Shown here piece by piece: positions 18,271 through 40,256 of a stretch of 64,000 bases of DNA. Numbering within the stretch: position 1 is the stretch's first letter; every line of letters starts with the position of its first letter. The notes beneath the pieces were generated by a model. That model searched no databases. It was not told the DNA's origin and saw only the letters and a program-made list of their open reading frames with translations. The DNA is from Thermanaerothrix daxensis (GTDB lineage Bacteria > Chloroflexota > Anaerolineae > Anaerolineales > Anaerolineaceae): assembly GCF_001306145.1 (NCBI RefSeq), contig NZ_LGKO01000005.1, positions 682,001 through 746,000 on the forward strand. Reading direction: 5' to 3'. The position numbers were made by a program, and so were the translations under genes.

Positions 18271-20073
18271 ATGGAAAAAGAGTTTATTCGCAATTTCTGC
18301 ATCATTGCCCACATTGATCATGGAAAATCCACCTTGGCGGATCGTCTTTTGCAAATAACCGGTACCATCTCCGACCGCCAGATGGTGGAGCAGGTGTTGG
18401 ACTCGATGGAATTGGAACGAGAAAAGGGGGTAACCATCAAAGCCTCGGCGGTACGGATGCTTTACCGGCATTCCAGTGGGAAAGAGTACGAACTGAATTT
18501 GATTGACACACCTGGTCATGTAGATTTCAGTTACGAGGTCAGTCGGGCGCTGATGGCCTGCGAAGGAGCGCTGCTGGTTGTAGATGCTACGCAAGGGATT
18601 GAGGCGCAGACTCTGGCGAACCTTTACCTGGCTCTGGATGCCGATTTGACCATTATTCCGGTGATTAATAAGATTGACCTGCCCTCGGCACGTGTTGCCG
18701 AGGTTGCTCAGGAGATCCAGAACCTCCTGGGAACACCCCCGGAAGAGATTCTGGCCGTCTCGGCTAAGGAAGGTACCAATGTGGAGAAGGTTCTGGAAGC
18801 GGTGGTAGAACGGGTGCCTTCCCCTCGTGGTGATACTTCCCTGCCGTTGAGGGCGCTGGTGTTTGATTCCCATTACGACTCTTACAAAGGCGTGGTTGCC
18901 TATGTGCGGGTGTTCGATGGAATGATTCGCCCCGAGGACACCCTGCGGGTGATGTCAAGCGGGATTGACTTTAGACCGGTTGAAGTCGGTATATTCTCAC
19001 CGGATATGCGCCCGGTAAGTGTCCTCAGTGCTGGGGAGGTGGGGTATGTGGCTACCGGCTTGAAAACAGTTTCGGAATGCCGCGTGGGTGATACGATTAC
19101 CTCGTCCACCTCTCCTGCGGCTGAACCCTTGCCGGGATTTCGTCATCCGAAGCCCATGGTCTTTGCTGGGATTTATCCGGTTGAAAACGAAGACTACGAA
19201 CGGCTGAAGGAGGCTCTGGAGAAACTCCAACTTAATGATGCCTCCCTCGTATTTCAACCTGAGAAATCCCAAGCCCTTAATTTCGGTTTCCGCTGTGGTT
19301 TTTTGGGGCTTTTCCACATGGAAATTATCCAGGAACGTCTGGAACGCGAATATGACCTGGATATTGTGGTCACAGCCCCTTCGGTCGAGTATGAGGTGGT
19401 CCTGCGAACTGGGGAGGTTGTTCGAATTGATTCCCCGGCGTTGCTCCCGGATGAAGGGCTGATTGAAGAGATACGCGAACCCTGGATGGTGGTTCAAATT
19501 TTCACCCCGATGGAGTATTACGGCACGGTGATGGATTTGGTACGTCGCCGCCGCGGCATTTTCCGCGAGCAGGAATACCCGGCGCCGAACCGGGTGCAAT
19601 TGACTTTTGAGATTCCGCTCTCTGAGTTGATTGTGGACTTCTTCGATGAACTTAAGTCTCGCACCCGCGGCTATGGTTCAATGGACTATCACTTTGCTGA
19701 GTATCGTCCGGGTGACCTGGTCAAATTGGAAGTTCTGGTGGCGGGTGAGCCAGTAGATGCCCTGGCGACCATTGTGCATCGCGATCAGGCCTATCACAAA
19801 GGCCAGGCGTTGGTCAGTAAACTCAAGGAGGTCATTCCCCGCCAATTGTTCGACGTGGCAATCCAGGCTGCGGCTGGAGGGCGCATCATCTCTCGGGCTA
19901 ATGTCAAGGCGTTGCGCAAGGATGTGTTGGCTAAGTGTTACGGCGGCGATGTAACGCGCAAGAAAAAGTTGCTGGAAAAGCAGAAACGGGGGAAGAAGCG
20001 CATGAAAATGATCGGTAACGTGGAAATTCCGCAGGAGGCATTCCTGGCGGTTTTGGGCTTGGAGGAAGATTGA
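18271..20073 (+). CDS. lepA: Elongation factor 4 (LepA)
   Basis: Translational GTPase that acts in 30S biogenesis and ribosome back-translocation. The G1 motif is [13 protein letters not shown]3 is DTPGHVDF, G4 NKIDLP; the LepA-specific C-terminal domain has [20 protein letters not shown] and the final [14 protein letters not shown]. Length of 600 residues and absence of EF-G domain IV mark it as LepA. It starts at ATG 18271 without an evident ribosome site. Its stop overlaps the TTG start of the downstream membrane protein gene. Confidence 0.98.
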
Positions 20074-21092
20074 GAGAAAAGGGCGCTTGTCGGGCCACAT
20101 GGGTAAAGTGGTTGCCAGGGTTTCTCATTAGTGTGCTGGCGTTAGGTATTTTATTCCGGGTTGCCAATTGGCAAGGGATTGGGGAGGCCTTAGTTGCCTA
20201 TCGTTGGCCCTTTATCGTGGGCTCACTGCTGTTGACCCTCGCTTTCCTTTGGGTACGCGCCATGGCTTGGGCCGCCTTGCTGGAGGGGCGCGCTCATCCT
20301 GTTCAGACGTTCTGGGCTATCAATCAGGGTTATTTGATTAACAATTTATTACCGCTACGGGCCGGTGAATTAGGGCGCGCTGTGTTGCTGGGGCAGCAAA
20401 TCAATCTCAGCCCGGTTCACATCCTTTCCACCGTGGTCATCGAGCGTATTCTAGACCTGGCCTTTGCGGCGCTCTTGCTGTTGAGTACATTGCCCCTGGT
20501 GGTGGGGATGGCCTGGGCGCGTACTGTGTCCTGGTTGACGTTGGGGGTGATTTTGCTGGTCCTGCTCATCTTGACCCAAATTGCCCAGCATCAGGAAGCC
20601 GCTTTGCGCTTTTTTGAGAAGGTGACTCAACGCTGGCGCTGGCGGATCCTTCAAGAGGTGGTACTACCTCAAGTGCGCACGCTCATTGAAGGGCTGGGGG
20701 CATTGCGTAGTCCTGCTTCCTTGTGGAAGGTCATGTTCTGGATTGCGGTTTCGTGGGGACTAGCGGTGTGCAATTATTACCTGATGCTATTGCCTATTGC
20801 GCCACACGCTCGCTTCTGGTGGGGGGCGTTTGCGGATGGGGTTTTGGCTATGGGGATCGCTCTGCCTTCTGCACCAGCCGCGCTGGGAACGTTTGAGGCG
20901 GCATTGGTGGGTGCGCTAGCCCTTCTGGGAGTGGAATCAACCCCTGCCCTGGCCTACGCGATTACCTTGCATTTTTTGCAGTTCATAATGACGGGGGTTT
21001 TAGGCGTGCTGGGGTTGTTACGCCAGCGCCGTTCGCTGCAGGGATGGACCCAATGGCTGCAACTGCGGGAGCACAGGGACCCAATTTCGTAA
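20070..21092 (+). CDS. LPG-synthase-type (UPF0104/AglD-like) multi-TM protein
   Basis: A 340-residue polytopic protein with about eight TM helices. The features match the lysylphosphatidylglycerol synthase TM-region family (AglD/UPF0104): [29 protein letters not shown] near residue 90, [16 protein letters not shown] after it, and [20 protein letters not shown] near the C-terminus. It has no MprF aminoacyl-transfer domain, so it is not a complete lipid aminoacylase; family members include flippase-like and glycan-related proteins. The TTG start at 20070 overlaps the lepA stop (TTGA) with GGAGG 4 bases upstream. Downstream come an epimerase, a GT4 and a methyltransferase, so a role in surface glycan or lipid synthesis is likely. 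Confidence 0.82.
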
Positions 21093-21110: not shown

Positions 21111-22136
21111 ATGCCGCGACGTTATCTCATCACTGGAGGAGCAGGTTTCATCGGCTCTAATTATGCCGCCCGGTTAATCAACCAGGGACATGAAGTAATC
21201 ATTTATGATAATCTCTCACGCGCAGGGGCAGTGCGCAATTTGGAGTGGTTGCGCACCACCTTTGGTGAGGATGCTTATCGCTTGATTGTGGCTGATGTCC
21301 GGGATACCCAGCGGTTGATCGAGGCGGTACGGGGTGTGGATGTGGTGGTGCATCTGGCTGCTCAAGTTGCTGTCACCACCTCGGTAACCGATCCACGCAG
21401 TGATTTTGAAATCAATGCGCTGGGTACCTTCAACGTTTTAGAGGCGGCTCGCCTTTCGGGAAAGGATCCTGTCGTCATCTATGCTTCAACCAATAAAGTC
21501 TATGGGGGCATGGAGAATGTGGCTGTGGTGGAGGGGGATACCCGCTGGTATTATCAGGACCTTCCTGAAGGTTGCCCGGAGACTCAACCCCTGGACTTTC
21601 ATTCTCCCTATGGATGCTCAAAAGGGTGTGGTGATCAGTACGTGCGTGATTATGCGCGTATTTACGGCTTGCCCACGGTGGTAATGCGCCAATCTTGCAT
21701 TTATGGACCGCGCCAATTTGGGGTAGAGGATCAAGGATGGGTGGCCTGGTTTGTGATTGCTGCTCTGTTGAAGCGCCGATTGACCATCTATGGAGACGGT
21801 AAGCAGGTGCGCGATCTGCTCTTTATTGATGACCTTCTGGATGCTTATAATGCGGCCATTGAGCGCATTGATGCAGTAGCGGGCCAGATCTTCAATATTG
21901 GCGGAGGTCCGCAAAACAGCATCTCGATTTGGCGTGAGTTTGGACCGCTTTTAGAGCGTTTAGTGGGGTTTTCAATCCCGGTTGACTTTGGAGAGTGGCG
22001 CCCAGGTGATCAACGTGTTTATATTTCGGATATTCGCAAAGCGCGTCAGTGGTTGGATTGGCAGCCTAAAGTCAGCGTGGAAGAAGGGGTGGAACGCTTA
22101 GTAACCTGGGTCAGGGACAATCTAAATCTCTTTTGA
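21111..22136 (+). CDS. NAD-dependent sugar epimerase, CDP-tyvelose 2-epimerase-like
   Basis: Short-chain dehydrogenase of the extended sugar-nucleotide family. The NAD motif is GGAGFIGSNYA, followed by YDNLSRAGAVRNLEWL; the catalytic site is YGCSKGCGDQYV, with YASTNKVYG before it. The YGPRQFGVEDQGWVAWF segment is typical of CDP-paratose/tyvelose 2-epimerase-like enzymes. At 341 residues it is complete; GGAGG precedes the ATG. It is followed 15 bases later by a glycosyltransferase. The actual sugar nucleotide is not known; the substrate assignment is by similarity only. Confidence 0.85.
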   Translation: MPRRYLITGGAGFIGSNYAARLINQGHEVIIYDNLSRAGAVRNLEWLRTTFGEDAYRLIVADVRDTQRLIEAVRGVDVVVHLAAQVAVTTSVTDPRSDFEINALGTFNVLEAARLSGKDPVVIYASTNKVYGGMENVAVVEGDTRWYYQDLPEGCPETQPLDFHSPYGCSKGCGDQYVRDYARIYGLPTVVMRQSCIYGPRQFGVEDQGWVAWFVIAALLKRRLTIYGDGKQVRDLLFIDDLLDAYNAAIERIDAVAGQIFNIGGGPQNSISIWREFGPLLERLVGFSIPVDFGEWRPGDQRVYISDIRKARQWLDWQPKVSVEEGVERLVTWVRDNLNLF

Positions 22137-22151
22137 ACCTGGCGAGCAACG

Positions 22152-23315
22152 ATGCGCATCTTGACCGTACTCACTTATTACCGCCCTCACACTTCGGGTT
22201 TGACCATTTATGCCGAGCGGTTAGCGAAAGCCCTGGCGCGGCGCGGGCATCAGGTGACCGTGCTCACATCACAGTATGAGCGTTCCCTGCCACGCGAAGA
22301 ACAGGTGGATGGTGTGCGGATTGTTCGCGCTCCAGTGATGTGGCGCGTGAGCAAAGGGGTCATCATGCCCACCTTCGGCTTCCTGGCCACGCGTCTGGTG
22401 CTCTCTCATGATGTGGTGCATCTGCATTTACCCCAGTTTGATGCCGCCGGCATTGCGTTGCGAGGACGGCTTTTGCGAAAGCCCACCGTCATCACTTATC
22501 ACTGTGATTTGCGCATGCCCCCTGGGTTGGTGGCCTGGCTGGCCAATCAGGCTGTGCTGGTGATGAATGAACTGGCAGCGTTATTTACCCATCGGATTGT
22601 CACTTACACCCAGGATTATGCAGACCATTCGGCGTATCTGAGGCGGTACATGCACAAGTTGCACGTCATTCCACCGCCAGTAGAGTTACCGGTGGTTACT
22701 TTACAAAGCATTCAGGAGTTTGGAAAGCGCTTTAACCCTGAAGGGCGTCGCCCGGTTATCGGCATGGCAGCGCGCTTTGCCACTGAAAAGGGGGTTGAAG
22801 TGCTCCTGGACGCCTTACCCCGCATTTTGGAGGTCTATCCTCAGGCACAGGTCCACTTTGCAGGGCCTTACCAAAATATTGTGGGGGAAGAGCAGTATTT
22901 CCGCCGACTTGCTCCTCGCATTGAGGCTTTGCAAGCACAGGGACACTGGCGTTTTTTAGGAGTGCTGAATCCAGAAGATATGGCGCGTTTCTACCCCAAC
23001 ATTGATGTGTTGGTACTGCCATCGCTTAATTCCACCGAGGCCTTTGGCCTGGTCCAAATTGAGGCCATGATGAATGATGTGCCTTGTGTGGCGTCAGATC
23101 TACCGGGAGTGCGCCAACCAGTGCTGAGGCATCACATGGGGCACATTGCCCCGGTCGGAGATTCCCATGCGCTGGCAGAGGCGATCCTGGAAGTTCTGGC
23201 GAACCGGGAGCAGTTCAAAGTGGATCGCGAAACCATTCGCCAGCAATATCACCCGGATGCCATTGCTGCGCACTTTGAAACCCTATTTCAAACCATGTGG
23301 GACGAGTTGCATTGA
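22152..23315 (+). CDS. Glycosyltransferase family 4
   Basis: GT-B fold glycosyltransferase of 387 residues. The N-terminal acceptor domain begins MRILTVLTYYRPHTSGL; the C-terminal nucleotide-sugar domain has GMAARFATEKGVEVLLDAL, VHFAGPYQN, and LPSLNSTEAFGLVQIEAM, with the EX7E-type motif (E in STEAFGLVQIE) typical of GT4. Located between a sugar epimerase and a methyltransferase in an apparent glycan operon with short gaps. The donor and acceptor are unknown; a mannose- or rhamnose-type donor would fit the neighbourhood but is speculative. Confidence 0.9.
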   Translation: MRILTVLTYYRPHTSGLTIYAERLAKALARRGHQVTVLTSQYERSLPREEQVDGVRIVRAPVMWRVSKGVIMPTFGFLATRLVLSHDVVHLHLPQFDAAGIALRGRLLRKPTVITYHCDLRMPPGLVAWLANQAVLVMNELAALFTHRIVTYTQDYADHSAYLRRYMHKLHVIPPPVELPVVTLQSIQEFGKRFNPEGRRPVIGMAARFATEKGVEVLLDALPRILEVYPQAQVHFAGPYQNIVGEEQYFRRLAPRIEALQAQGHWRFLGVLNPEDMARFYPNIDVLVLPSLNSTEAFGLVQIEAMMNDVPCVASDLPGVRQPVLRHHMGHIAPVGDSHALAEAILEVLANREQFKVDRETIRQQYHPDAIAAHFETLFQTMWDELH

Positions 23316-24136
23316 GCCCGACTCAGATTCCTTCCGCATCACCTCTATTGGGCAAGCGAGATTTCCTCTGGTTGCACTTACGCGAATTGCCCTATTTCCG
23401 GGCTTTGTTGCGAGCCGTTGAGGCGCGATTCTATCAGGATCTGCATTTACCCCGTCCGGTGCTGGATATTGGGTGCGGGGATGGGCATTTCGCCAGCGTG
23501 ACCTTTGCCGAACCCCTGGATGTGGGGTTAGATCCGGACCCAGGAGTTTTGCCCTTGGCAAGAAATTATGGGGGCTACCGCTGGGTGCTCCGTGGGTATG
23601 GGAACGCACTGCCGTTCGGCTCAGCGAGTTTTGCCAGTGCAGTGAGCAATTCGGTGTTGGAACATATTCCGGATGTGGATGGGGTTTTGCAGGAAGTGGC
23701 CCGCGTCCTTCGTCCAGGAGCGCCCTTTATCTTTTGCGTACCCAATCACCGTTTTACCCGTTCGCTTTCGGTGGCTCGCTTCCTCGACCGGCTGGGGTGG
23801 CATGGGCTGGCCGAAGCGTATCGCCGTTTCTTCAACCGTATTTCGCGCCATTATCATTGTGATGACGTGCCTCGCTGGGACGAACGATTGAGAGCAGCGG
23901 GTTTCGCCCTGGAGCGTTACTGGCACTATTTTTCACCTGAAGCGCTGGCCTGCCTGGAATGGGGGCACTATTTTGGCCTTCCCGCATGGGTGGCGCGGAA
24001 ACTGACCGGCAGGTGGATTCTTGCACCAACAACCTGGAATCTCAGTTTGACTCGGCGAGTGGTACAGCCTTACTATGACCAGAGGGCTATTTGCGATGAT
24101 GGGGTGTACACGTTTTATGTGGCCCGGCGCGTTTAA
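23312..24136 (+). CDS. Class I SAM-dependent methyltransferase
   Basis: Methyltransferase (type 11-like) with the SAM motif VLDIGCGDGHFASV at about residue 50, a second motif LDPDPGVLPLA, and SVLEHIPDVDGVLQEVARVLRPGA, the typical post-I to III region. The long C-terminal half (NHRFTRSLSV..., HYFSPEALACLEWGHYFG) is not in simple family members and may bind a glycan or lipid acceptor. Start is TTG 23312, overlapping the upstream stop as TTGA; GTG at 23297 is an alternative in the same frame. The 3' end overlaps the opposing DNA methyltransferase gene by 4 bases. Confidence 0.82.
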   Translation: MSPTQIPSASPLLGKRDFLWLHLRELPYFRALLRAVEARFYQDLHLPRPVLDIGCGDGHFASVTFAEPLDVGLDPDPGVLPLARNYGGYRWVLRGYGNALPFGSASFASAVSNSVLEHIPDVDGVLQEVARVLRPGAPFIFCVPNHRFTRSLSVARFLDRLGWHGLAEAYRRFFNRISRHYHCDDVPRWDERLRAAGFALERYWHYFSPEALACLEWGHYFGLPAWVARKLTGRWILAPTTWNLSLTRRVVQPYYDQRAICDDGVYTFYVARRV

Positions 24137-25233
24137 TCGGTATTTTTCGGTCTGAAATACGCGCTGCTGAGCCGTAGGCGCAGGTTGTTGAGGGGATAGA
24201 GATTCCCAGTTTCGTCGCGGTAGTACCAGAGATCCCAACCATTGCAAGGTGCATTATTCAGCAGAGCACGCGCTACGGTGTGGATAGATCCGGTAAGCTC
24301 ACCGCAGCGCAGGTGACCGTTGGCAAGAATGATGGCTTCCGGGGATCCTCCCCGGAAGTAGAGAGGCTGACCGGGTTGAAGCAAGCCGGCTTCTAAGAGA
24401 GCCCCAAAAGGGATGCGGGGACGCCGGCGCGTTTCCACCCATTCCACGGCTGGAAGGGGAGCCGGGGTAATGGCTTGAATGCGTGCTCGTGCAATTTGAA
24501 CGTAGCGGGGGTCCCGTTCAATGCCCAGATAATGACGATGTAATTTTTTGGCAACGGCCCCTGTGGTACCGCTTCCAAAGAAGGGGTCCAAAATGATGTC
24601 ACCAGGCTGTGTTGAAGCCAGAACGACGCGGTAAAGCAGGGCTTCGGGCTTTTGGGTGGAATGGGCTTTCTCGCCGTTGATGCGGATGCGCTCGTTGCCG
24701 ATGCATGTCGGCAGGTACCAATCCGAACGCATTTGAAGGTCTTCGTTGAGGGCTTTCATTGCCTGGTAGTTAAAGGTGTATTTAGCCCCTTTGGTTTTTT
24801 GTGCCCAGATGAGGGTTTCATGAGCGTTCGTGAAGCGGGTACCATGAAAGTTGGGAGTGGGGTTGGTTTTGATCCAGACTAGATCATTAAGGATCCAGAA
24901 CCCCAATTCTTGGAGCAGCGCGCCGACACGATAAATATTGTGGTAAGTGCCAATTACCCAGAGGGTCCCGGTGTCTTTGAGCACGCGGCGGCACTCTGAA
25001 AGCCAGGCGCGCGTGAAAGTATCATAAGCAGTCAATGATTCAAAGCGATCCCAATGGTCATCTACCGCGTCTACGCGTGTAAAATTGGGGCGGTAGAGAG
25101 CATGCTGCAATTGGAGGTTGTAGGGGGGATCGGCGAACACCATGTCCACGGCATTCGAAGGAAGTTGAGGCAAGATTTCCAGGCAATCGCCTTCCAGGAT
25201 GGTATCCAGGGGCAAACCATCCACTGATTCCAT
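24133..25233 (-). CDS. CcrM-like DNA adenine-N6 methyltransferase with C-terminal RAMA domain
   Basis: Beta-class adenine DNA methyltransferase. Catalytic motif IV is DPPYNL (in ADPPYNLQ), and the SAM-binding motif I comes after it (DPFFGSGTTGAVA), the order of beta-class enzymes. HSTQKPEALLYRVVLAS is also typical. The last ~100 residues (RIPFGALLEAGLL ... CNGWDLWYY) match the RAMA domain found at the end of CcrM. By homology the target would be GANTC, which is not proven. No restriction endonuclease is next to it, so it appears to be solitary. ATG 25233 is chosen with AGAGGA just upstream; the frame opens at TTG 25251. Confidence 0.88.
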   Translation of the reverse strand: MESVDGLPLDTILEGDCLEILPQLPSNAVDMVFADPPYNLQLQHALYRPNFTRVDAVDDHWDRFESLTAYDTFTRAWLSECRRVLKDTGTLWVIGTYHNIYRVGALLQELGFWILNDLVWIKTNPTPNFHGTRFTNAHETLIWAQKTKGAKYTFNYQAMKALNEDLQMRSDWYLPTCIGNERIRINGEKAHSTQKPEALLYRVVLASTQPGDIILDPFFGSGTTGAVAKKLHRHYLGIERDPRYVQIARARIQAITPAPLPAVEWVETRRRPRIPFGALLEAGLLQPGQPLYFRGGSPEAIILANGHLRCGELTGSIHTVARALLNNAPCNGWDLWYYRDETGNLYPLNNLRLRLSSAYFRPKNTD

Positions 25234-25330
25234 GGTTTCCTCTGCTCTCAAAGGGCCTCCAAGATAAGTTTAGCATAATCGCCCTTCATGCGGGCCGTGC
25301 TAGCGTCCCCGCCAAGGATGTGGGCGGTGC

Positions 25331-25420: not shown

Positions 25421-27607
25421 ATGAAGGAACCCACCATTCTGGATTTCGTAAAAGCCTTGCTGACTCCCTGGCGGGGCAGGCCACCGGCCATACCCCCGTT
25501 AGAAGAACCCTCGATAACGTCCCCTTTGCCCCCTTCGGACGAAGAAGTTGTTGTAGTTTCCACGGAAGTTCCTTCTGCACCTGAACCTGGCCCCGCTAAG
25601 AAACCGGCTCCACAGCATGAAGCGAGTGAACCTTTTCGGGTGCCCTGGTTGAGTTTGTCTGCAGTGGGGCTGGCACTTTTAGCGCAAGCCCTGCTGGAAC
25701 CCCCACGGGAAGGATCCCCTCTGGTGGCAGTGGGGATTTATGGACTGGCGCTGGTGGCTTTGCTAGCGGCAATCTGGAAGCGCGAATGGCAGATACCGGT
25801 CCTTGAGAATGAGACACCGCCCACGGTCTTGCCACTCAAAGTGCGAACCCGGGCTGCGTTGCTGGCTGCGGGGTTAATGCCGTTCGCTTTCCTGGCATTA
25901 GGAGGCAATCGTTTTACCCCCCTCAACCTGATTTTATGGTTGGGGTGCCTGGCGGCAACCCTGGTTGCCTTTTTACTCCCTGTGTCGTCGGGAAGAGGGT
26001 TGCGGGACTGGCTCAACAAACTGCGCCAATCGCGCTGGACTATCTCGATTTCGCGCTGGGCTTTGGTATTGGCTCTGGCCACACTGGTGGTGGCCTTTTA
26101 CCGGTTTTATCGTCTGGATAGTGTGCTGGGGGAGATGTTTAGCGATCACGCTGAAAAATTGCTCGATGTGGCAGATGTATTACAAGGTCAGACCTCAATT
26201 TTCTTCCCACGCAATACCGGACGGGAAGCATTTCAAATGTATCTGACTGCCTTGATCGCCGTAGTGGCCGGTACGGGGCTCTCCTTCATAAGCCTGAAGA
26301 TAGGTACAGCCCTGGCGGGTATGGCTGCACTCCCCTTCATTTACTTACTGGGCAAAGAACTCGGAGGAAAATGGGTGGGGTTGGTAGCGTTCCTTCTGGC
26401 CGGGGTGGCTTACTGGCCGAATGTCATCTCCCGGGTGGGATTGCGCTTTCCGCTCTATCCAATGGCTGTTGCGCCAGCACTGTATTTCCTCATTCGGGGA
26501 CTGCGACATGGCCAGCGCAATGATTTTATCTGGGCCGGATTGGCCTTGGGAATTGGGCTGCACGGGTACAGCCCAACTCGTCTTCTACCTTTTGTCATGG
26601 GACTGGCAGTAGGGTTGTATTTGCTCCACCGGCATTCCCGAGGGCGCCGCTGGGCTACGGTGTGGGCTTTTGGGGCGCTGGCTTTTACTGCATTGGTGGT
26701 TTTTCTGCCGCTTCTGCGTTACATGGTGGAGCAACCCGATATGTTCGCCTTTCGGGCGATGACACGGCTTAGTGCGGTCGAGCGCCCTTACCCTGCGCCG
26801 GTTTGGCAAATCTTCCTGAGCAATCTATGGAAGGCCCTCATCATGTTTTTCTACGATAATGGGAGTATTTGGGTGCATTCCATTCCCGGTCGTCCGGCGC
26901 TGGATCTGTTCACCGCAGCGTTTTATTTCCTTGGTCTTGTCATCATTGTGCTTCGTTATGTGCGTGAACGCCATTGGGTTGATATTTTTCTTTTGCTCTC
27001 CGTACCCATGCTGATGATGCCCTCGATTCTCTCGCTGGCCTTTCCTGAGGAAAACCCCTCGCTCAACCGAACTGGTGGAGCAATTGTTCCGGTGTTCATC
27101 ATTGCAGCCATTGGGTTGGTTACCTTTTTGCAGACGTTGAAGAACCATGTTCACCCTCGCTGGGGACAGGTGTTCAGTGGGCTGGTGGGAGTGGGGCTCC
27201 TGGCCGCGGTTGGTTATCAGAATTTCGACCTGGTATTTCGACAATTTGACCGCCAGTTCATGGCGGGTGCCTGGAATACTTCGCAGATTGGGCATGTCAT
27301 CCGTGCTTTCGCCGATTCCATTGGCAATCCTGATACGGCCTACGTTGTGCCTTACCCTTATTGGGTGGACACTCGATTGGTGGGGATCAATGCGGGTTAC
27401 CCGCTTAAAGATTATGCGTTGTGGCCTGAGGATTTCGAGAAAACGCTTGAGCAGCCAGGGCCCAAGCTCTTCATTCTCAAACCCGAAGACCAGGCAGCGC
27501 TGGAAAAATTACGTGCGCTTTATCCGGCAGGTTCCCTCTATTACTATGATAGTCACCGCGAAGGGAAGGATTTTTTGATTTTCTTTGTTCCTCCCCAGAC
27601 TCCCTGA
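25421..27607 (+). CDS. GT39-like (GT-C) membrane glycosyltransferase
   Basis: A 728-residue polytopic protein. The first ~80 residues are Pro/Glu-rich and soluble; then about a dozen TM helices. The DSVLGEMFSDHAEKL segment (residues ~230-245), following a YRFYRLD TM end, resembles the D-E loop of ArnT/PMT-like GT-C enzymes that use polyprenyl-phosphate sugars. The C-terminal ~130 residues are an extracytoplasmic-looking domain ending LKPEDQAALEKLRALYPAG. Probably transfers a sugar from a polyprenyl phosphate donor on the outer face. It is followed by two similar large proteins with small gaps (20 and 8 bases). Confidence 0.82.
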   Translation: MKEPTILDFVKALLTPWRGRPPAIPPLEEPSITSPLPPSDEEVVVVSTEVPSAPEPGPAKKPAPQHEASEPFRVPWLSLSAVGLALLAQALLEPPREGSPLVAVGIYGLALVALLAAIWKREWQIPVLENETPPTVLPLKVRTRAALLAAGLMPFAFLALGGNRFTPLNLILWLGCLAATLVAFLLPVSSGRGLRDWLNKLRQSRWTISISRWALVLALATLVVAFYRFYRLDSVLGEMFSDHAEKLLDVADVLQGQTSIFFPRNTGREAFQMYLTALIAVVAGTGLSFISLKIGTALAGMAALPFIYLLGKELGGKWVGLVAFLLAGVAYWPNVISRVGLRFPLYPMAVAPALYFLIRGLRHGQRNDFIWAGLALGIGLHGYSPTRLLPFVMGLAVGLYLLHRHSRGRRWATVWAFGALAFTALVVFLPLLRYMVEQPDMFAFRAMTRLSAVERPYPAPVWQIFLSNLWKALIMFFYDNGSIWVHSIPGRPALDLFTAAFYFLGLVIIVLRYVRERHWVDIFLLLSVPMLMMPSILSLAFPEENPSLNRTGGAIVPVFIIAAIGLVTFLQTLKNHVHPRWGQVFSGLVGVGLLAAVGYQNFDLVFRQFDRQFMAGAWNTSQIGHVIRAFADSIGNPDTAYVVPYPYWVDTRLVGINAGYPLKDYALWPEDFEKTLEQPGPKLFILKPEDQAALEKLRALYPAGSLYYYDSHREGKDFLIFFVPPQTP

Positions 27608-27627: not shown

Positions 27628-30600
27628 ATGACCACAACACCTGACGACGAAAAAGGCCATTCACACCCGACGCATCGTAGATTGTTCTGGGATGCGCTGT
27701 TAATCCTTATTCTGCTGGTAGGGGCTTATTTCCGCCTGGTGGGATTGGATTGGGATGAGGAGCAACATCTTCATCCCGATGAGCGTTTTATGACCATGGT
27801 TGCCAGTTCGGTGCGGTCCCCCGGCAGTCTGGCAGAGTATTTCAACACGGCTACCTCTCCCCTTAATCCCCATGTTGTTGGATATGGTTTTTATGTGTAT
27901 GGTACGCTTCCTTTATTCCTGGTGCGGTGGGTGGGTGAAGCGCTTGGAAAAACCGGCTACGGGGAAATCTACCTGGTGGGACGAGTGCTTTCGGCTCTGG
28001 CGGATCTTTTTACCGTATTTCTTGTTTATCACATTGCGCGGCACCTTTATCGCCGAACCGGTTTGGGGGTATTGGCGGCAGCGTTCGCTGCCCTGGCTGT
28101 GCTGCAAATTCAACTGTCCCACTACTTTACCGTGGATACGTTCGCCAACGCCTTCCTTTACTTGGCTTTCTATGCAGCCGTGCGGGTGATGACTGCTCCG
28201 TTACCCGAGGATTCTCAGGGCACTCCCATGGCTTCGGGGATGCGAGAGCCGGTAGGCTTTTATTTGCTGTTTGGGGTGGGACTGGGGCTGGCATTGGCGT
28301 CCAAGGTAAGCACATTACCGGTTGCCGTTTTGCTCCCGCTGGCAGTTTTGATTCGCTTCTCACGGCTTCCTGCGGATTCGCGTTACGCAATTGGGACAGG
28401 AATGGTGCGTAACCTTCTGCTGGCAGTGGGGGTGGCCTTCCTGTGCTTTCGTGTTTTTCAGCCCTATGCTTTTAGCGGGCCCGGATTCTGGGGGCTTGCC
28501 ATTAACCCGCGCTGGGTAGATAACCTGCGCGAATTGAGCAACCTTAGCAATGGAGATGTGGATTTCCCACCCGCGTTGCAGTGGGCCCGGCGTCCGGTTA
28601 CCTTTGCCTGGGAAAACATGGTCAAATGGGGGCTGGGACTCCCCCTGGGGATTTTGGCCTGGGCAGGTTTTTTGTGGATGGGTAACCGCATTATCAAAGG
28701 AGAATGGCGTGAGCACCTTTTGTTGTGGGGATGGACGGGGCTGTATTTCACCTGGCAGAGTTTGAACTTCACGCGTGCGATGCGTTATCAACTCCCGGTT
28801 TACCCGGCGTTGGCGGTCATCGCCGCCTGGGCCGTGACCATGTGGTGGGAGAAAGGTCAATCCTCTATGATCGCTGTTCGTTCACACCCAAAAAGGCATC
28901 AAGTGCTTGCGCTTGGGCTGGGAGGGTTGGTGCTGGTTGGGACGTTCTTATGGGCTTTTGCGTTTACCCGTATCTACACGCGCCCGGTAACTCGTGTAGC
29001 CGCCAGCCGTTGGATTTACCAAAACGTGCCCGGGCCAATTAGCCTGCAAATTCAATCTGAGACTGGGGTGCTTAATCAACCGTTGCCGGTACGGGCCGGG
29101 GCCTCCCTTACCGCCGCGCAGCCTCTACGCTGGGCATTCACTCCCACAGAATCATGGATGGTCTCGCAGATATGGTTCGCGGCCATTTACGATCCTTCTC
29201 TTGGAACGGATCCGAAGACCGTGCAGATTCTCCTCGGTACAGATGAAGGGGAGGGGGCTGTTCTGGCAGTACGCCAGGTGACCGACACGTTTGCCGTTTC
29301 CGAAGATCAGAGTGCACGCGTTGTTGCTCTGGAGACTCCGGTTCGACTCGATGCGGGTCGGTCCTACTGGCTGGAGGTGCGCCTGGAGAGCCAGGGATAT
29401 TTACTGCGCTTGAACGGGGCCATTCAATTAGGAAGTGAACAGGTTCCCCAACGGCTTACCGTCATTCCGGATCTGGTAGAGCCATTGCGCCCGGGTCAGG
29501 GTTGGGTGATTCCCTTTGTTTCTACCCAAACGGGAACGCTAACAAGTATATGGCTGAACCGGATTGTAGATTGGAGGGGATTGGATGAAACCCAAACCTT
29601 GCGCCTTCAGGTAATGGATTCGGCTACTGGGAGTACCCTGGCCACGGAAGAGATCCAAGGCACGTTTAAGGCCCAAGGGGATCCACGGGGTGAACCCTAT
29701 CTACTTACACTGAAAACACCCATTCGGATGGAAAAAGATAAGGGGTACCTTCTAACCCTGGATGTTATAGCCGGTGAGGGTGAGATTGCCATCTATGGTA
29801 GCGCGCCGGCTCACGAATCTACCTGGGATGATGGTCTCCCGTTGCGCATGGATGGCTATGATCCTTACGGGGGAATTTACCGCGGTGGCTTGAATTTTGA
29901 AATGTATTGGGATGATAATGAAGAGAAACTGGCACGCTTTCTCTCCATTCTTGACCAGGCGGATTATATCTTCATCACCTCGAATCGCCAGTGGGGCACT
30001 ACGACCCGCGTGCCAGAGCGTTATCCGTTGACGACGGTTTATTACCGAAATCTGCTGGGATGCCCGGAAGATAAGTCCATCCTTTGGTGTTACAGCGTAG
30101 CCCAGCCAGGCATGTTTGAAGGAAACCTGGGTTTTGAGTTGATCCGGGTGTTCCAGAGCGATCCTAACCTGGGGCCGCTCAAATTTAACACCCAATTTGC
30201 CGAAGAAGCCTTTACGGTTTATGATCATCCCAAAGTCTTGATCTTCAAAAAGCGGGCTGATTACAACCCGGCCCAGGTGCACGCAGTGTTGGGAAGTGCG
30301 GACCTGAGCAAGGTCATTCGCCTGACACCGCGCAAGTTTAAGTCCTACCCGGCGACCCTAATGCTCCCGCTGGAACGCTGGATTCAACAGGTCAGAGGAG
30401 GAACCTGGTCCGCCTTTTTTGACACTTCGGCCTGGTACAATCGTTACCCCGGCTTGGGGTTGGTGTTCTGGTATCTCGTACTCTCGGTATTGGGATGGGT
30501 GGTTTACCCGCTGGGGCGTCTGGTTTTTGGCTACCTGCCGGATCGAGGATATCCCCTGTTGCGAATTTTGGCATTGCTGTGTCTGGGGTGGGGAGTATGG

Positions 30601-32901
30601 GTGTTGGGTTCATTTGGGGTGCCATTTACCCCTCTCACAGTATCGTTTACGGCTGTTGGGCTTTTGGGACTTAACCTGGGGCTAGGCTTTTTACAGCGCA
30701 AAGCAATTTTTCAGGAACTGCGCCAGGGATGGCGGTACATTCTACGGGTTGAAGCCATGGCCCTGGCGTTCTTTCTCTTCTTCCTGTTGGTCCGCCTGGG
30801 CAACCCGGACTTGTGGCACCCCTACAAGGGGGGCGAGAAGCCAATGGATTTCTCCTACTTCAACGCGGTGATCAAAAGCACCACGTTCCCACCCTATGAC
30901 CCCTGGTTCGCGGGTGGATACATCAATTATTACTACTTTGGGTTCGTCCTGGCGGCTGTGCCGACGAAGTGGTTGGGGATTGTCCCGTCCATAGCCTACA
31001 ATTTGATCTTGCCCTCATTTTTTGCCTTTGTGGCGCTGGGGGCTTTTAGTGCGGGTTTCAACCTGGTTTACTGGGCAAATGCACGCCGGTCTCATGATGC
31101 TCCTGGGGATTCCTATTGGGCGGAAGCCAGGCCGTGGTTGGGGGGATTGGCAGCGGCAGTGGGGGTGTTGATTCTGGGCAACCTGGGCACGGTGCGCATG
31201 ATCTGGCAGGGGTTGCAGCGGTTAGTGGCTCCCAATGGGCAAATTGAAGGGGCAAATTTTATTCAGCAGGCGATTTGGGCAATGCAGGGGTTGGGACGCT
31301 TGATTGCAGGTGCTCATTTGCCTTATGCCCCGGGGGATTGGTACTGGATTCCGAGCCGTGTTTACCCGGGGGAGCCGATTACGGAGTTTCCGTTTTTCAC
31401 CTTTCTGTACGCTGATCCTCACGCGCACTTGTTCGCTCTGCCTCTGACCCTCCTGGCTCTGGGGTGGGGGTTGGCAGTGCTCTTTGCCGGTTGGCGTTGG
31501 ATACGCTCTGAGGAGGGTGTGCAATGGCCGTTGCGGGTGCTGGGGCTCTTTTTCTTGGGGGGATTGATTATCGGGGCTCTGCGGCCGACCAACACCTGGG
31601 ATTTGCCCACCTACTTGGGGTTGGCTCTGCTTGCCGTGATTTTCAGCGGCTGGCAAAATGGCGACCTTCCTGAGGGTTGGTGTCCCTATTTCTCGCCACA
31701 GATCAGACGCTGGATTGCAGTGGGGGTGGCTTCACTAGCGCTTACGGGGTTGGCGTTGTGGCTTTATGCGCCATTCAGTCACTGGTATGGGCAAGCATAT
31801 GCCGCCATTGATTTATGGCGCGGGGCCCGCTCACCTTTCTGGTCCTATCTAACTCATTGGGGCGTATTCCTGTTTGTTCTGGTGTTCTGGTACGGTTGGG
31901 AAACCTACGTGTGGATGGCAACGACACCTCTTTCGGCAATACGTCGCATCTACCCGTACCGTTATGCGCTTATGATTGGAGGGATAATCTATGTGGGGGC
32001 AATGGTTTATTTGACCCGGGGACTGGGGATTGAAATTGCTTGGTTGGTCATGGCCCTGGTGCTATGGGCTGGGTTGTTGCTCCTGCGTTCGCATCAAGAT
32101 CACGCCAGGCGAGCAGTCCTGGTGATGAGCGCGGCGGCGTTGACACTCACGCTGGCGGTCGAACTGGTGGTTTTGCGGGGGGATATCGGCCGCATGAACA
32201 CGGTGTTCAAATTCTATCTCCAGGCGTGGGTGTTGTTGGGCGTTAGCGCGGCAGCGGCTCTGACCTGGTTATGGTCGGTGGTGCCACGCTTCTGGAAGCC
32301 GGCCTGGCAGAATGTATGGAAAGTGGGGTTGGGGCTTCTCGTCGGTGGGGCACTCCTCTTTCCGCTTTTGGGTGGAGCGGATAAAATTCGGGATCGCATG
32401 AGTCCAAATGCCCCCCACTCCCTTGATGGTATGGCTTACATGCCGTTTTCAACCTATTGGGAGGGTGAGCACACTCTGGATCTGAGTCAGGATTATCGTG
32501 CCATCCGCTGGATGCAGGAGACGGTCCAGGGATCTCCTGTGATTGTAGAGGCGAATGTTCCTGAATACCGTTGGGGAAACCGCTTTACGATTTACACTGG
32601 TTTGCCGGGGGTGGTGGGTTGGAACTGGCACCAACGTCAACAACGAGCCCTTCTGCCTGACACCTGGGTCACCGAGCGTGTGGCGGCCATTGCGGCCTTC
32701 TACAATACAATGGATCTGGAAGAGGCCCGGCGCTTCCTGGATCGGTATCAGGTTATTTATATTATTGTGGGACAATTGGAGAAAGCGGTTTATCAGGCCG
32801 AGGGGTTGGCAAAGTTTGAGACCCAGGAGGGCAGATTATGGCGACGGGTGTATCAGGATGCCGACACCGCTATTTACCAGGTGATCCGTCTGGGTAAGTG
32901 A
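27628..32901 (+). CDS. Giant GT39-like / Chlor_Arch_YYY (DUF2298) fusion membrane protein
   Basis: A 1757-residue protein made of two halves. The N-terminal ~420 residues look like a PMT/GT39-type GT-C module (LVGLDWDEEQHLHPDERFM near residue 45 carries the D-E motif). A soluble region at ~430-900 is rich in beta structure (LQIQSETGVL, ITLDV-like repeats). The C-terminal ~850 residues begin with TM segments and contain YINYYYFGFVL at about residue 1100, the signature of the Chlor_Arch_YYY family known from Chloroflexi and archaea. I infer a cell-envelope glycan or glycoprotein role; function is uncharacterised. No frameshift is seen. The following gene overlaps its stop or starts 8 bases after it. 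Confidence 0.85.
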   Translation: MTTTPDDEKGHSHPTHRRLFWDALLILILLVGAYFRLVGLDWDEEQHLHPDERFMTMVASSVRSPGSLAEYFNTATSPLNPHVVGYGFYVYGTLPLFLVRWVGEALGKTGYGEIYLVGRVLSALADLFTVFLVYHIARHLYRRTGLGVLAAAFAALAVLQIQLSHYFTVDTFANAFLYLAFYAAVRVMTAPLPEDSQGTPMASGMREPVGFYLLFGVGLGLALASKVSTLPVAVLLPLAVLIRFSRLPADSRYAIGTGMVRNLLLAVGVAFLCFRVFQPYAFSGPGFWGLAINPRWVDNLRELSNLSNGDVDFPPALQWARRPVTFAWENMVKWGLGLPLGILAWAGFLWMGNRIIKGEWREHLLLWGWTGLYFTWQSLNFTRAMRYQLPVYPALAVIAAWAVTMWWEKGQSSMIAVRSHPKRHQVLALGLGGLVLVGTFLWAFAFTRIYTRPVTRVAASRWIYQNVPGPISLQIQSETGVLNQPLPVRAGASLTAAQPLRWAFTPTESWMVSQIWFAAIYDPSLGTDPKTVQILLGTDEGEGAVLAVRQVTDTFAVSEDQSARVVALETPVRLDAGRSYWLEVRLESQGYLLRLNGAIQLGSEQVPQRLTVIPDLVEPLRPGQGWVIPFVSTQTGTLTSIWLNRIVDWRGLDETQTLRLQVMDSATGSTLATEEIQGTFKAQGDPRGEPYLLTLKTPIRMEKDKGYLLTLDVIAGEGEIAIYGSAPAHESTWDDGLPLRMDGYDPYGGIYRGGLNFEMYWDDNEEKLARFLSILDQADYIFITSNRQWGTTTRVPERYPLTTVYYRNLLGCPEDKSILWCYSVAQPGMFEGNLGFELIRVFQSDPNLGPLKFNTQFAEEAFTVYDHPKVLIFKKRADYNPAQVHAVLGSADLSKVIRLTPRKFKSYPATLMLPLERWIQQVRGGTWSAFFDTSAWYNRYPGLGLVFWYLVLSVLGWVVYPLGRLVFGYLPDRGYPLLRILALLCLGWGVWVLGSFGVPFTPLTVSFTAVGLLGLNLGLGFLQRKAIFQELRQGWRYILRVEAMALAFFLFFLLVRLGNPDLWHPYKGGEKPMDFSYFNAVIKSTTFPPYDPWFAGGYINYYYFGFVLAAVPTKWLGIVPSIAYNLILPSFFAFVALGAFSAGFNLVYWANARRSHDAPGDSYWAEARPWLGGLAAAVGVLILGNLGTVRMIWQGLQRLVAPNGQIEGANFIQQAIWAMQGLGRLIAGAHLPYAPGDWYWIPSRVYPGEPITEFPFFTFLYADPHAHLFALPLTLLALGWGLAVLFAGWRWIRSEEGVQWPLRVLGLFFLGGLIIGALRPTNTWDLPTYLGLALLAVIFSGWQNGDLPEGWCPYFSPQIRRWIAVGVASLALTGLALWLYAPFSHWYGQAYAAIDLWRGARSPFWSYLTHWGVFLFVLVFWYGWETYVWMATTPLSAIRRIYPYRYALMIGGIIYVGAMVYLTRGLGIEIAWLVMALVLWAGLLLLRSHQDHARRAVLVMSAAALTLTLAVELVVLRGDIGRMNTVFKFYLQAWVLLGVSAAAALTWLWSVVPRFWKPAWQNVWKVGLGLLVGGALLFPLLGGADKIRDRMSPNAPHSLDGMAYMPFSTYWEGEHTLDLSQDYRAIRWMQETVQGSPVIVEANVPEYRWGNRFTIYTGLPGVVGWNWHQRQQRALLPDTWVTERVAAIAAFYNTMDLEEARRFLDRYQVIYIIVGQLEKAVYQAEGLAKFETQEGRLWRRVYQDADTAIYQVIRLGK

Positions 32902-32909
32902 GGGTAAGC

Positions 32910-34664
32910 ATGAGCATATCGCATGAGAAGCAGGAGCCACAATCCTCAGCCAGGTTAGGGGCGGGCATTTTTATCGGCGTATTTCTGTTGGGGCTGGTGT
33001 TGCGGTTGATTGCCCTGGACCAGCATCCTTTGAGTGAAACCGAAGCACACCTGGCTTTACAGGCCTATGCATTGGCGCAGGGGCAGTCAGTCCCTGATCT
33101 GGCAGGCCAGCCTGGTTATCTCCTCCCTACGGCACTGGCATTTTTCCTCCTTGGGGCGCGGGAAGCCACCGCGCGGTTCTGGCCAGCGTTATGGGGAATC
33201 TTGGTAGTGGGCCTGCCCTGGTTACTAAGGCGCCAATTGGGCCAGCCCTTGGCAATCCTTTTGGCGCTGGGTCTGGCGCTGGATGCGGGTCTGGTGGCGA
33301 CTTCGCGCCTGGCCACGGCTGATAGTCTCGCCCTGTGGAGTTTGCTGGGACTGATCACGTTTGCCTGGCGCAGGGAGTGGCGCCTGGCTGGGATTGCACT
33401 GGCATTGGGAGTTCTTTCTGGAGCCTCTTTTTGGCTGGGAGCCCTGATCTTGGGAGCGACCTGGGGGTTCTGGCGCTGGATTGAGGGGTCTTTGGAGGTT
33501 GACGTGCCAGAAACCCCGTATTCGCTTTATGGGGTCAGCCTCAATGGATCTATTCCCTGGCCGCGTCTTGCCATCTCGGCTCTGGTGGCGTTTTTCCTAT
33601 TAGGAAGCGGTCTGGGGATTGTAGGGCGTGGATTGGGTGCGGCGGCTACGGGTTTGGTTGAGTTTCTACGTGGGTGGGCAGCTCAAGGCACCACATCGCC
33701 GGGGTTGCTGGGAATGGCGTTGCTCGTTTATCAACCCTTGGGTTGGGTGTTGGCACTGGGTCAGTGGATGAGGGGGTGGCGCCGTATGTCCCCCCTGGCC
33801 CGTTTATCCACCCTCTGGCTGGGGGTTGGGGTGATCCTGCTGGCAGTTTATCCGGGGCGGCAGGTGAGTCATCTGATCTGGGTGTTGGTGCCGCTGTGGA
33901 TTTTAGCCGCCTCTACGCTGACTCAGTGGCTTGGCGGCTTGCGTGAGATCGAACGAACTTCCCTGTTGGTGGTTGCTACCGCGTATTTCGTCCTTTTGGG
34001 CTATTTGTGGCTCAATCTTGAGGGGCTGGTGCCCGGCAACGTTGATCCCCAGTGGATTTGGGTGCGGGGTTTGGCATTCCTGGGAGCCGTGTTGTTAGGG
34101 GTTGCCCTCTGGTTGGTCGTGGGGTGGTCGTGGGGGATGCAGGTTTCTCGCCAGGGCTTATTCTGGGGAGGCACTGTCTTCCTGGGCCTGCTGGCTTTTT
34201 CGGCCACCTGGCAAGCAGCCGGATTGGGACGGGCGCCCTCGGCCCAGATTTGGGGATCTCAGCCCTACGTAGCCGAGGAGGATTTGCTCCTGAAGACTTT
34301 GGAGGACGTCTCGGAGTGGGTTACTGGACGGCGGGACGCAGTGGATATTCGCGTGGTAGGGATCGAATCGGAGGCGCTTAGATGGGCCCTGCGGCGATTT
34401 TATCACGCAGAGTTTGTCCAAACACTTCCGCCTTTGGAGACTCCTTCGGTGGTAATTACCTCTGAGGTGGCGATGCCGGGAGTCAGTGCCCTTTACCGCG
34501 GGCAGGACTTTGTGTGGCGGGAGACGTCTGACTGGTCGCTCTTCTTGCCAGGAGAGTGGTTATCCTGGATAATATATCGTAAGGCGCCCTTGCAACGCCA
34601 GGCAATTGTTGTGTGGGTACGCGCGGATCGTTTTCCTCAGGTTGTTAACCTTACAAATCCTTAG
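32910..34664 (+). CDS. GT39-like (GT-C) membrane protein
   Basis: A 584-residue polytopic protein with about ten TM helices. It begins with GAGIFIGVFLLGLVLRLIALDQHPLSETEAHLA, whose ETEAH corresponds to the acidic loop of GT-C enzymes. The C-terminal ~150 residues are soluble (GSQPYVAEEDLLLKTLEDVSEW...). Start is ATG 32910 with GAGGG in front; GTG 32898, overlapping the previous stop, is an alternative in the same frame. It ends directly upstream of cmk. With the two upstream genes it makes a three-gene set of large GT-C proteins, probably acting on polyprenyl-linked sugars. Confidence 0.75.
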   Translation: MSISHEKQEPQSSARLGAGIFIGVFLLGLVLRLIALDQHPLSETEAHLALQAYALAQGQSVPDLAGQPGYLLPTALAFFLLGAREATARFWPALWGILVVGLPWLLRRQLGQPLAILLALGLALDAGLVATSRLATADSLALWSLLGLITFAWRREWRLAGIALALGVLSGASFWLGALILGATWGFWRWIEGSLEVDVPETPYSLYGVSLNGSIPWPRLAISALVAFFLLGSGLGIVGRGLGAAATGLVEFLRGWAAQGTTSPGLLGMALLVYQPLGWVLALGQWMRGWRRMSPLARLSTLWLGVGVILLAVYPGRQVSHLIWVLVPLWILAASTLTQWLGGLREIERTSLLVVATAYFVLLGYLWLNLEGLVPGNVDPQWIWVRGLAFLGAVLLGVALWLVVGWSWGMQVSRQGLFWGGTVFLGLLAFSATWQAAGLGRAPSAQIWGSQPYVAEEDLLLKTLEDVSEWVTGRRDAVDIRVVGIESEALRWALRRFYHAEFVQTLPPLETPSVVITSEVAMPGVSALYRGQDFVWRETSDWSLFLPGEWLSWIIYRKAPLQRQAIVVWVRADRFPQVVNLTNP

Positions 34665-40139: not shown

Positions 40140-40256
40140 TTTGTTTTGCATGCATGCTATAGTTGACACCCAAACGAACTCAAACGCGTGAGGTCGTACC
40201 TCAGGCGTATGTCTTGTTTAAAGTCAAAAAGGTAATTTGCTAGAGGAGGCGTGTTT

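Follow-up and report, generated by a model that had tools for sequence, protein, structure and literature searches.

The window analysed here is a 64,000-nucleotide stretch of the Thermanaerothrix daxensis genome (contig NZ_LGKO01000005.1, positions 682,001 to 746,000), and our subject is a plus-strand gene in it whose single frame starts at an ATG and encodes 1757 amino acids without an internal stop (see the table). Residues 944-1752 of the protein match the NCBIfam family TIGR03662 (Chlor_Arch_YYY) with 501.4 bits, against a curated cut-off of 300.25, and cover positions 4-726 of a model of 727; the C-terminal half, passing this cut-off across the whole model, is thus a full-length member of the YYY family. 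The same half contains the Pfam domain DUF2298 (PF10060) at residues 986-1537 (E 6e-113, 378.8 bits against a cut-off of 27.8), and no other Pfam family was found on it. To our knowledge TIGR03662/DUF2298 is listed as a family of unknown function. We found no literature under Chlor_Arch_YYY, PF10060 or TIGR03662, and under DUF2298 nothing that treats the function of the YYY family, as far as the accessible part of PMC8756737 goes. Both this YYY half and the N-terminal half (N-half) to which it is fused are predicted to have the membrane fold of type C glycosyltransferases (GT-C).

For comparison we used the best 80 loci of 552 relatives, all titled as Chloroflexi or its groups and mostly Anaerolineae; since these come from related organisms, the locus counts given below are not independent. 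The N-half and the YYY half share one frame at 67 of the 72 loci with an uncut 5' end. The fusion is thus no artefact of the assembly studied here, and it is both old and common. The idea that some loci encode the N-half apart from YYY was mostly rejected, as the breaks in four of the five exceptions look like gaps, errors or split frames. L098 has a gap of 192 N, L113 has ambiguous bases at the break, and in L079 the N-half is split over two overlapping frames. In L046 (positions 1-400) the sequence of the N-half end lies upstream, with an in-frame stop near the junction of the two halves that is either a sequencing error or a real break. L100 is the sole one of the 72 with a clean YYY start and no N-half; outside this set, YYY without the N-half is also seen at L118, which belongs to a genome of the same family as the window.

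The N-half was modelled from 64 sequences (its alignment covers 63 of the 80 loci), with a predicted local distance difference test (pLDDT) of 91.6. In the VIA structure comparison the model matches AglB (Z 29.1, 450 residues, 7.3 Å), the yeast oligosaccharyltransferase (OST) chain 8agc_A (Z 28.8, 373 residues, 4.0 Å), ArnT (Z 27.4, 366 residues, 4.4 Å) and Pmt4 (Z 26.4, 398 residues, 3.6 Å), and several of its alignments to GT-C enzymes reach residues 858-901. Chains labelled U of the glycosylphosphatidylinositol (GPI) transamidase, which we take to be PIG-U, are also among the matches. A model helix at residues 50-61 begins at the invariant H-P-D-E of the first loop. The insert region of the N-half gives a weak match to choice-of-anchor R (residues 538-588), under the cut-off of that family.

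The N-half has no Pfam match of its own at E 0.1, PMT and PMT_2 included, and its profile reached Pmt1 only at E 0.07 among seven matches at E<=1 to PDB sequences. In profile-profile comparison by hhalign, the N-half family matched that of the PMT_2-type gene upstream of the fusion with 98% (E 2.6e-13) and that of the gene downstream with 95% (E 4.8e-8), and the two neighbour families matched each other with 94%. A stand-alone homologue of the N-half (L119 8478-10826, 783 amino acids) passes Pfam PMT (PF02366) with 29 bits against a cut-off of 22.7. Because of the link to the PMT_2-type family, the model and this free-standing homologue, we regard the N-half as a predicted GT-C module with a first-loop acid. 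Its CAZy family is not fixed by the fold, since the model comes structurally close to AglB, STT3, ArnT and PMT alike. Another genome of the phylum (G104) has, besides its fusion, a free-standing N-half-like match in a frame of 801 amino acids. A preliminary description of this DNA had called the protein a 1757-residue fusion of a GT39 enzyme with a D-E loop to YYY: the intact fusion and the loop hold, and the first part of that name holds as far as GT-C, the GT39 label being approximate.

The YYY half was modelled with AlphaFold2 from 76 sequences, with a pLDDT of 93.4 and a predicted template modelling score (pTM) of 0.94. The underlying alignment covers 75 of the 80 loci; L036, L066 and L110 were omitted by choice, L047 and L094 are cut at the 3' end, and the rows from L046, L074, L098, L100 and L113 are second-YYY genes (see below). 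All seven Foldseek matches of the model in the PDB at E<=0.001 are GT-C entries, with a yeast OST entry (8age_A) at the top, followed by three of DPY19, two AftA chains and AglB. In VIA, the first 38 of the 50 rows shown are all GT-C entries (Z 15.5 to 6.8); the first unrelated entry has Z 6.2, and unrelated proteins including transporters and receptors lie at or under that value. The best match is to Pmt1-Pmt2 (6p25_B; Z 15.5, 384 residues, 5.2 Å), and PMT, ALG9, ALG12 and DPY19 score Z 15.5-14.3, OST chains up to 15.1 and ArnT 11.9; taking the top row of each, OST, PMT, ALG9, ALG12 and DPY19 all fall within Z 15.5-14.5. In the OST complex and translocon entries, whose titles name the complex only, the matched chain is probably STT3, judging from the residue ranges, and likewise in 8age_A. 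The C-terminal globular domain of YYY matches the corresponding domain of AglB-S2 (3vu0_A) on its own, with Z 9.9 over 118 residues at 2.3 Å. We therefore predict a GT-C membrane fold for the YYY half as well.

Most of the GT-C matches in VIA begin at positions 118-136 of YYY (numbered from residue 905 of the protein), so that three further helices precede the GT-C core; matches to AftA (55) and to EmbA/EmbB (10) begin earlier. The loops hold on average 2.0 lysines plus arginines between extra helices 1 and 2, 0.2 between 2 and 3, and 4.8 between helix 3 and the core, a charge pattern that fits a catalytic loop facing outside, as the positive-inside rule expects.

The positions identical in all 76 YYY rows are R152, E166, M169, W189, Y197-Y199, E349, D359, H361, H363, N418, D421, R618, N620, K624, E737, Y743 and H764. 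They include the motif Y-Y-Y-x-G (YYYFG in the window, with its glycine also in 76 of 76), presumably the motif that gave TIGR03662 its name. E166, which is E1070 of the protein, directly precedes model helix 167-179 and belongs to the loop that follows the first core helix; position 170 is aspartate in 69 rows and glutamate in seven. According to the accessible parts of two papers, the acidic motif of GT-C enzymes is part of the first external loop, where it precedes the helix of that loop (PMC12331936), and comes shortly after the first membrane helix (PMC6801728). E1070 may accordingly be placed as the catalytic base, judging from the model and the alignment. In a separate alignment of the second-YYY genes, a glutamate is aligned with E166 in all 43 rows, and the counterparts of the other invariant positions are likewise 43 of 43 except for the third tyrosine (42), the first histidine of D-x-H-x-H (42) and the aspartate matching D421 (40). 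Two peptide patterns had served to choose the loci, E166 and M169 being part of one and D359, H361 and H363 of the other, and part of the conservation of these motifs is therefore a selection effect; the 17 of 76 rows with arginine at position 167 do not match the first pattern as written.

The fusion stands amid other genes of glycan type. The upstream PMT_2 gene stops 20 bases ahead of it, and the start of the downstream gene is formed by its last four bases, a four-base overlap. Residues 24-158 of the downstream protein match TIGR03663 ('Agl23'), its sole NCBIfam match, with 47.1 bits against a cut-off of 126.25 (model positions 3-139 of 435); it has no Pfam match at E 0.1, and its search against PDB sequences gave one unrelated match (E 0.69). 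A second, free-standing YYY gene of this genome (844 amino acids) lies on another contig. Scans for promoters and terminators at the locus had no informative outcome.

Table. Features of the fusion gene, its product and the neighbouring genes in the window
Feature	Position	Strand	Detail
Fusion protein, N-terminal GT-C module plus YYY (TIGR03662/DUF2298) module	27628..32901	+	1757 aa
Transmembrane GT-C part of the N-half, aa 1-466 (predicted)	27628..29025	+	Structure model and VIA matches
H-P-D-E, first loop of the N-half, aa 49-52 (candidate catalytic acids)	27772..27783	+	64/64 rows at each position
Beta-sandwich-like inserts of the N-half, about aa 490-730	29095..29817	+	Strands in the model
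C-terminal alpha/beta domain of the N-half, aa 765-889	29920..30294	+	Structure model
YYY half as aligned and modelled, aa 905-1757	30340..32898	+	YYY numbering starts here
Three extra helices ahead of the GT-C core, YYY 37-118	30448..30693	+	Model helices 37-54, 71-91, 98-118
E-K-P-M-D, first loop of YYY, YYY 166-170 (aa 1070-1074; candidate catalytic acid E1070)	30835..30849	+	
Y-Y-Y signature, aa 1101-1103	30928..30936	+	76/76 rows at each position
E1253...D-x-H-x-H (YYY E349, D359, H361, H363; possible metal or phosphate site)	31384..31428	+	76/76 rows each
R-x-N-x-x-x-K (YYY R618, N620, K624)	32191..32211	+	76/76 rows at each position
C-terminal globular domain of YYY, YYY 706-849	32455..32886	+	VIA match to 3vu0_A
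Upstream GT-C gene	25421..27607	+	728 aa; Pfam PMT_2, 46 bits against a cut-off of 26
Downstream GT-C-like gene	32898..34664	+	588 aa; TIGR03663 below threshold
PF03706/TIGR00374 flippase-like membrane protein	20070..21092	+	Kept in 40/52 loci
Nucleoside diphosphate (NDP)-sugar epimerase/dehydratase	21111..22136	+	Kept in 26/52 loci
Glycosyltransferase family 4 (GT4) protein	22152..23315	+	Kept in 50/53 loci
Methyltransferase	23297..24136	+	Kept in 46/55 loci

This arrangement is strongly kept in Chloroflexota. Counting at each step the loci whose sequence extends far enough to show the neighbour, a homologue of the upstream GT-C gene precedes the fusion at 62 of 67, a second YYY gene follows it at 66 of 76, and a homologue of the downstream GT-C gene is found at 60 of 69. 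In Anaerolinea thermolimosa, for instance, the second YYY gene (L037 12533-15022) is free-standing and encodes 830 amino acids. Farther upstream on the same strand lie the last four genes of the table, with the frequencies given there, and LepA (28 of 49), and on the downstream side a cluster that unites the window's cytidine monophosphate (CMP) kinase with an acyltransferase is seen at 50 of 56 loci. After manual thinning, the three neighbour alignments (A4, A5 and A6) hold 43 of 61, 46 of 59 and 42 of 62 of the neighbours that were eligible. The gene order in the window is that of the other loci, save for the location of the second YYY gene elsewhere and the insertion of a minus-strand DNA methylase gene. 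The latter is of the CcrM adenine type (24133-25251) and separates the methyltransferase gene from that of the upstream GT-C protein. At one locus (L061 3024-7138) the upstream GT-C gene is present in two tandem copies instead of one. Downstream of the locus, the window holds genes for a large Cache/HAMP/GAF/PAS histidine kinase and for rpoC (36742-40050 and 40251-44483); the cluster of the histidine kinase spans 46 of the loci examined, the window included. The preliminary description had placed two GT-C-like genes in one transcription unit with the fusion: the two flanking genes are there and are conserved, while its extent was drawn too short, as four more glycan-type genes lie upstream in the conserved locus.

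The same order recurs within single proteins. Three loci (L115, L116 and L117) encode the N-half, YYY and a further YYY in one frame (2607, 2691 and 2621 amino acids), with tetratricopeptide repeats (TPR) at the end of L115 and L117, the two that were scanned; the domains follow one another as the genes do elsewhere, and the insert stretch of the N-half profile (about 490-730) is skipped in all three. A fourth candidate, L121, was not counted, its second YYY copy lying in two other frames. In L115 and L116 the triple fusion directly follows a methyltransferase and a PF03706 protein, the methyltransferases being 33% and 31% identical to that of the window; in L117 this pair is not shown upstream. 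Gene order in related genomes may be a matter of descent, but L115 and L116 keep the same two upstream families beside a different architecture. Among the matches listed, at least 17 genomes have two YYY matches in one frame of 2501-2867 amino acids, and the double-YYY architecture is therefore not rare. The TIGR03662 description presumably already covers proteins that combine an N-terminal region with two copies and TPR repeats, as do those found here, and on that account the fused architecture as such is not new.

Across 301 sampled genomes of the phylum, the fusion protein has matches to either half at E<=1e-20 in 199, and TIGR03662 is found at the same threshold in 198 (193 over its cut-off). 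TIGR03662 and above-cut-off TIGR03663 occur together in 183 genomes, TIGR03662 alone in 15, TIGR03663 alone in two (G219 and G244) and neither in 101, giving a phi of 0.88, a value that ignores relatedness. This count of the YYY family replaced a looser one that admitted any match to the fusion protein (184, 15, 1 and 101). Three of the 15 genomes with TIGR03662 alone belong to the window's own family. The genome studied here has an above-cut-off TIGR03663 homologue on another contig than the fusion (G000:C1:1187671-1189719, L122 and L123; 225 bits, in a frame of 1180 amino acids). Two of 14 control genomes have TIGR03662, both archaeal (Haloferax volcanii and Methanosarcina acetivorans), and these are the only controls with both families; at a looser threshold TIGR03663 appears in four controls, two of them over its cut-off.

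Outside the phylum, the sole annotated neighbourhood is on a plasmid of Pseudobutyrivibrio (Lachnospiraceae), where a DUF2298 gene lies among GT2, glucosyltransferase-domain, O-antigen-ligase-family and NDP-sugar genes, on the strand opposite to them. One archaeal match, also on a plasmid, has no annotated feature beneath it and is near the end of the record. A scan of viral contigs found no relatives.

We propose, with a probability of about three in four, that two membrane glycosyltransferases of GT-C type are joined covalently in tandem in this protein. The proposal builds on what was obtained by computation, namely an intact fusion, GT-C folds predicted for both halves, the invariant polar residues and the conserved gene order; from these we infer the donor type, the inverting chemistry, the catalytic acid, the orientation and a product shared by the modules. 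On the outside of the cytoplasmic membrane, each half would take up a sugar linked to polyprenyl phosphate or pyrophosphate and transfer it to an acceptor in a single step with inversion. The base or metal ligand would be the acid of the first external loop (H-P-D-E for the N-half, E1070/D1074 for YYY), and the acceptor would be held by the C-terminal globular domain. The fusion may work together with the neighbouring GT-C proteins and the second YYY protein, which would bring about five GT-C modules together, and with the cytoplasmic GT4 enzyme, the NDP-sugar epimerase, the methyltransferase and the flippase-like protein it could build a surface glycan or the glycan of a glycoprotein. Chloroflexota archaella probably carry O-glycans, according to the accessible parts of PMC4973528 and PMC12488501.

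The preliminary description had argued from the fusion and the neighbours that YYY has a role with polyprenyl-linked sugars, and had suggested comparing a structure prediction with GT-C folds and surveying the neighbours. The model of the C-terminal half matches GT-C enzymes, with no contrary fold seen, and no lack of neighbour conservation was met in the Chloroflexota loci. The predicted fold and the conserved neighbours both support such a role, with the polyprenyl-linked donor itself a plausible extrapolation. The argument by association is better restated: the YYY domain would itself be a GT-C module, as the model, the residues and the gene context support.

Several observations weigh against our proposal. 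The template modelling scores (TM-scores) of the seven best Foldseek matches are low, at 0.25-0.31 of the YYY query; YYY is thus at most a divergent branch of GT-C. Comparison of YYY by hhalign with the three GT-C families of the locus gave 2.1, 2.8 and 18.6%, which is not significant, and comparison of first-loop segments gave 0.1-1.4%; phmmer and profile searches of PDB sequences with YYY returned no GT-C match. Since sequence profiles give no link, the assignment of YYY to GT-C rests on predicted fold, conserved residues and gene context, and the structure models were built from alignments of related Chloroflexota alone. E166 was placed by its position relative to a model helix and not by superposition on a known GT-C active site. 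The partner genes are not universal, the upstream GT-C gene being missing at five of 67 loci, the second YYY gene at 10 of 76 and the downstream GT-C gene at nine of 69; the second YYY gene is absent from the locus in the window itself, and among six further genomes of its family, three carry YYY without a TIGR03663 match at E<=1e-36. The lack of profile similarity is not decisive in our view, as GT-C families share low or undetectable identity with each other, according to the accessible part of PMC6801728. The first-loop segments of two related families, those of the N-half and the downstream gene, likewise reach only 6.6%.

A narrower version, overlapping with the tandem of transferases proposed here, is that the YYY half, in the manner of STT3, AglB and PglB, hands an entire oligosaccharide over to protein and not single sugars. 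The yeast OST entry at the top of the Foldseek matches and the AglB-like C-terminal domain would fit. However, PMT, ALG9, ALG12 and DPY19, which move single sugars, score as high as OST chains in VIA, and the W-W-D motif typical of STT3 was not seen in the C-terminal consensus of the YYY alignment; we consider this version unlikely, if the best placed of the alternatives.

The main rival is translocation: YYY could be a GT-C-fold protein that moves polyprenyl-linked sugars across the membrane for partner transferases without transferring them itself. Agl23 of H. hispanica suppressed the deletion of rft1 in yeast, and in liposomes it moved a lipid-linked oligosaccharide (PMC11182771, in its accessible part); it also names the family that co-occurs with YYY in most of the genomes carrying either; a protein of this group therefore need not be a transferase, which is a further point against our proposal. 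The three extra helices ahead of the core would also suit a translocase. The invariant charged loop residues E166, E349, D359, H361, H363, K624, E737 and H764 and the OST-like C-terminal domain, on the other hand, fit catalysis better, and a flippase-like PF03706 protein is already present in most of the loci, so that we judge a translocase distinctly unlikely. Agl23 is not mentioned in PMC8993221.

YYY might also be a non-catalytic scaffold of GT-C fold holding GT-C partners together, in the way of PIG-U, a scaffold-like GT-C-fold part of the GPI transamidase. Its fusion to and clustering with other GT-C proteins, and the presence of the U chains among the N-half matches, agree with this; the strict conservation of acidic and basic residues over two paralogous groups and the existence of YYY genes without an adjoining N-half (L100 and L118) make it improbable. 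The least probable reading, that any large helical membrane protein would match GT-C and the fold match is a modelling artefact, could draw on the missing sequence link and the low TM-scores, but is hard to square with unrelated VIA entries at Z 6.2 or less beneath 38 leading GT-C rows and with a soluble domain that matches separately.

If YYY is taken as a transferase, a wider picture can be drawn, which we offer tentatively and hold at somewhat less than even odds. DUF2298/YYY would be an unrecognised, highly diverged GT-C family of Chloroflexota, archaea and some Clostridia that forms covalent relay enzymes of two or three active sites, with TPR in some lineages, each chain adding successive sugars of one extracytoplasmic glycan in a sequence set by how domains and genes are ordered (PMT_2-type, N-half, YYY, second YYY and TIGR03663-like). 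The GT-C class is known to us as single enzymes or dimers, and tandem GT-C polypeptides would, if true, be a new arrangement for it. With this assignment a widespread family gains candidate residues for mutagenesis and a pathway in which to search, and it may bear on how Chloroflexota build their cell surface.

Compared with known systems, the C-terminal half is a full member of TIGR03662/PF10060, for which we now offer a GT-C fold prediction, a set of candidate active-site residues and a gene locus. Like STT3/AglB/PglB and DPY19, YYY has the predicted membrane fold, an acid in the first external loop and a C-terminal globular domain; unlike them, it begins with three additional helices, carries the motifs Y-Y-Y and D-x-H-x-H and occurs in a tandem fusion, and it shares no detectable sequence similarity with them. 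TIGR03663 (Agl23) co-occurs with YYY, and the downstream neighbour resembles its N-terminal third, under the cut-off. The N-half shares its fold and its D-E loop with PMT, PMT_2 and ArnT (of the GT39/GT83 type), and its upstream neighbour is itself a PMT_2 protein, but it differs from these enzymes in having no Pfam match of its own and in carrying beta-sandwich-like inserts.

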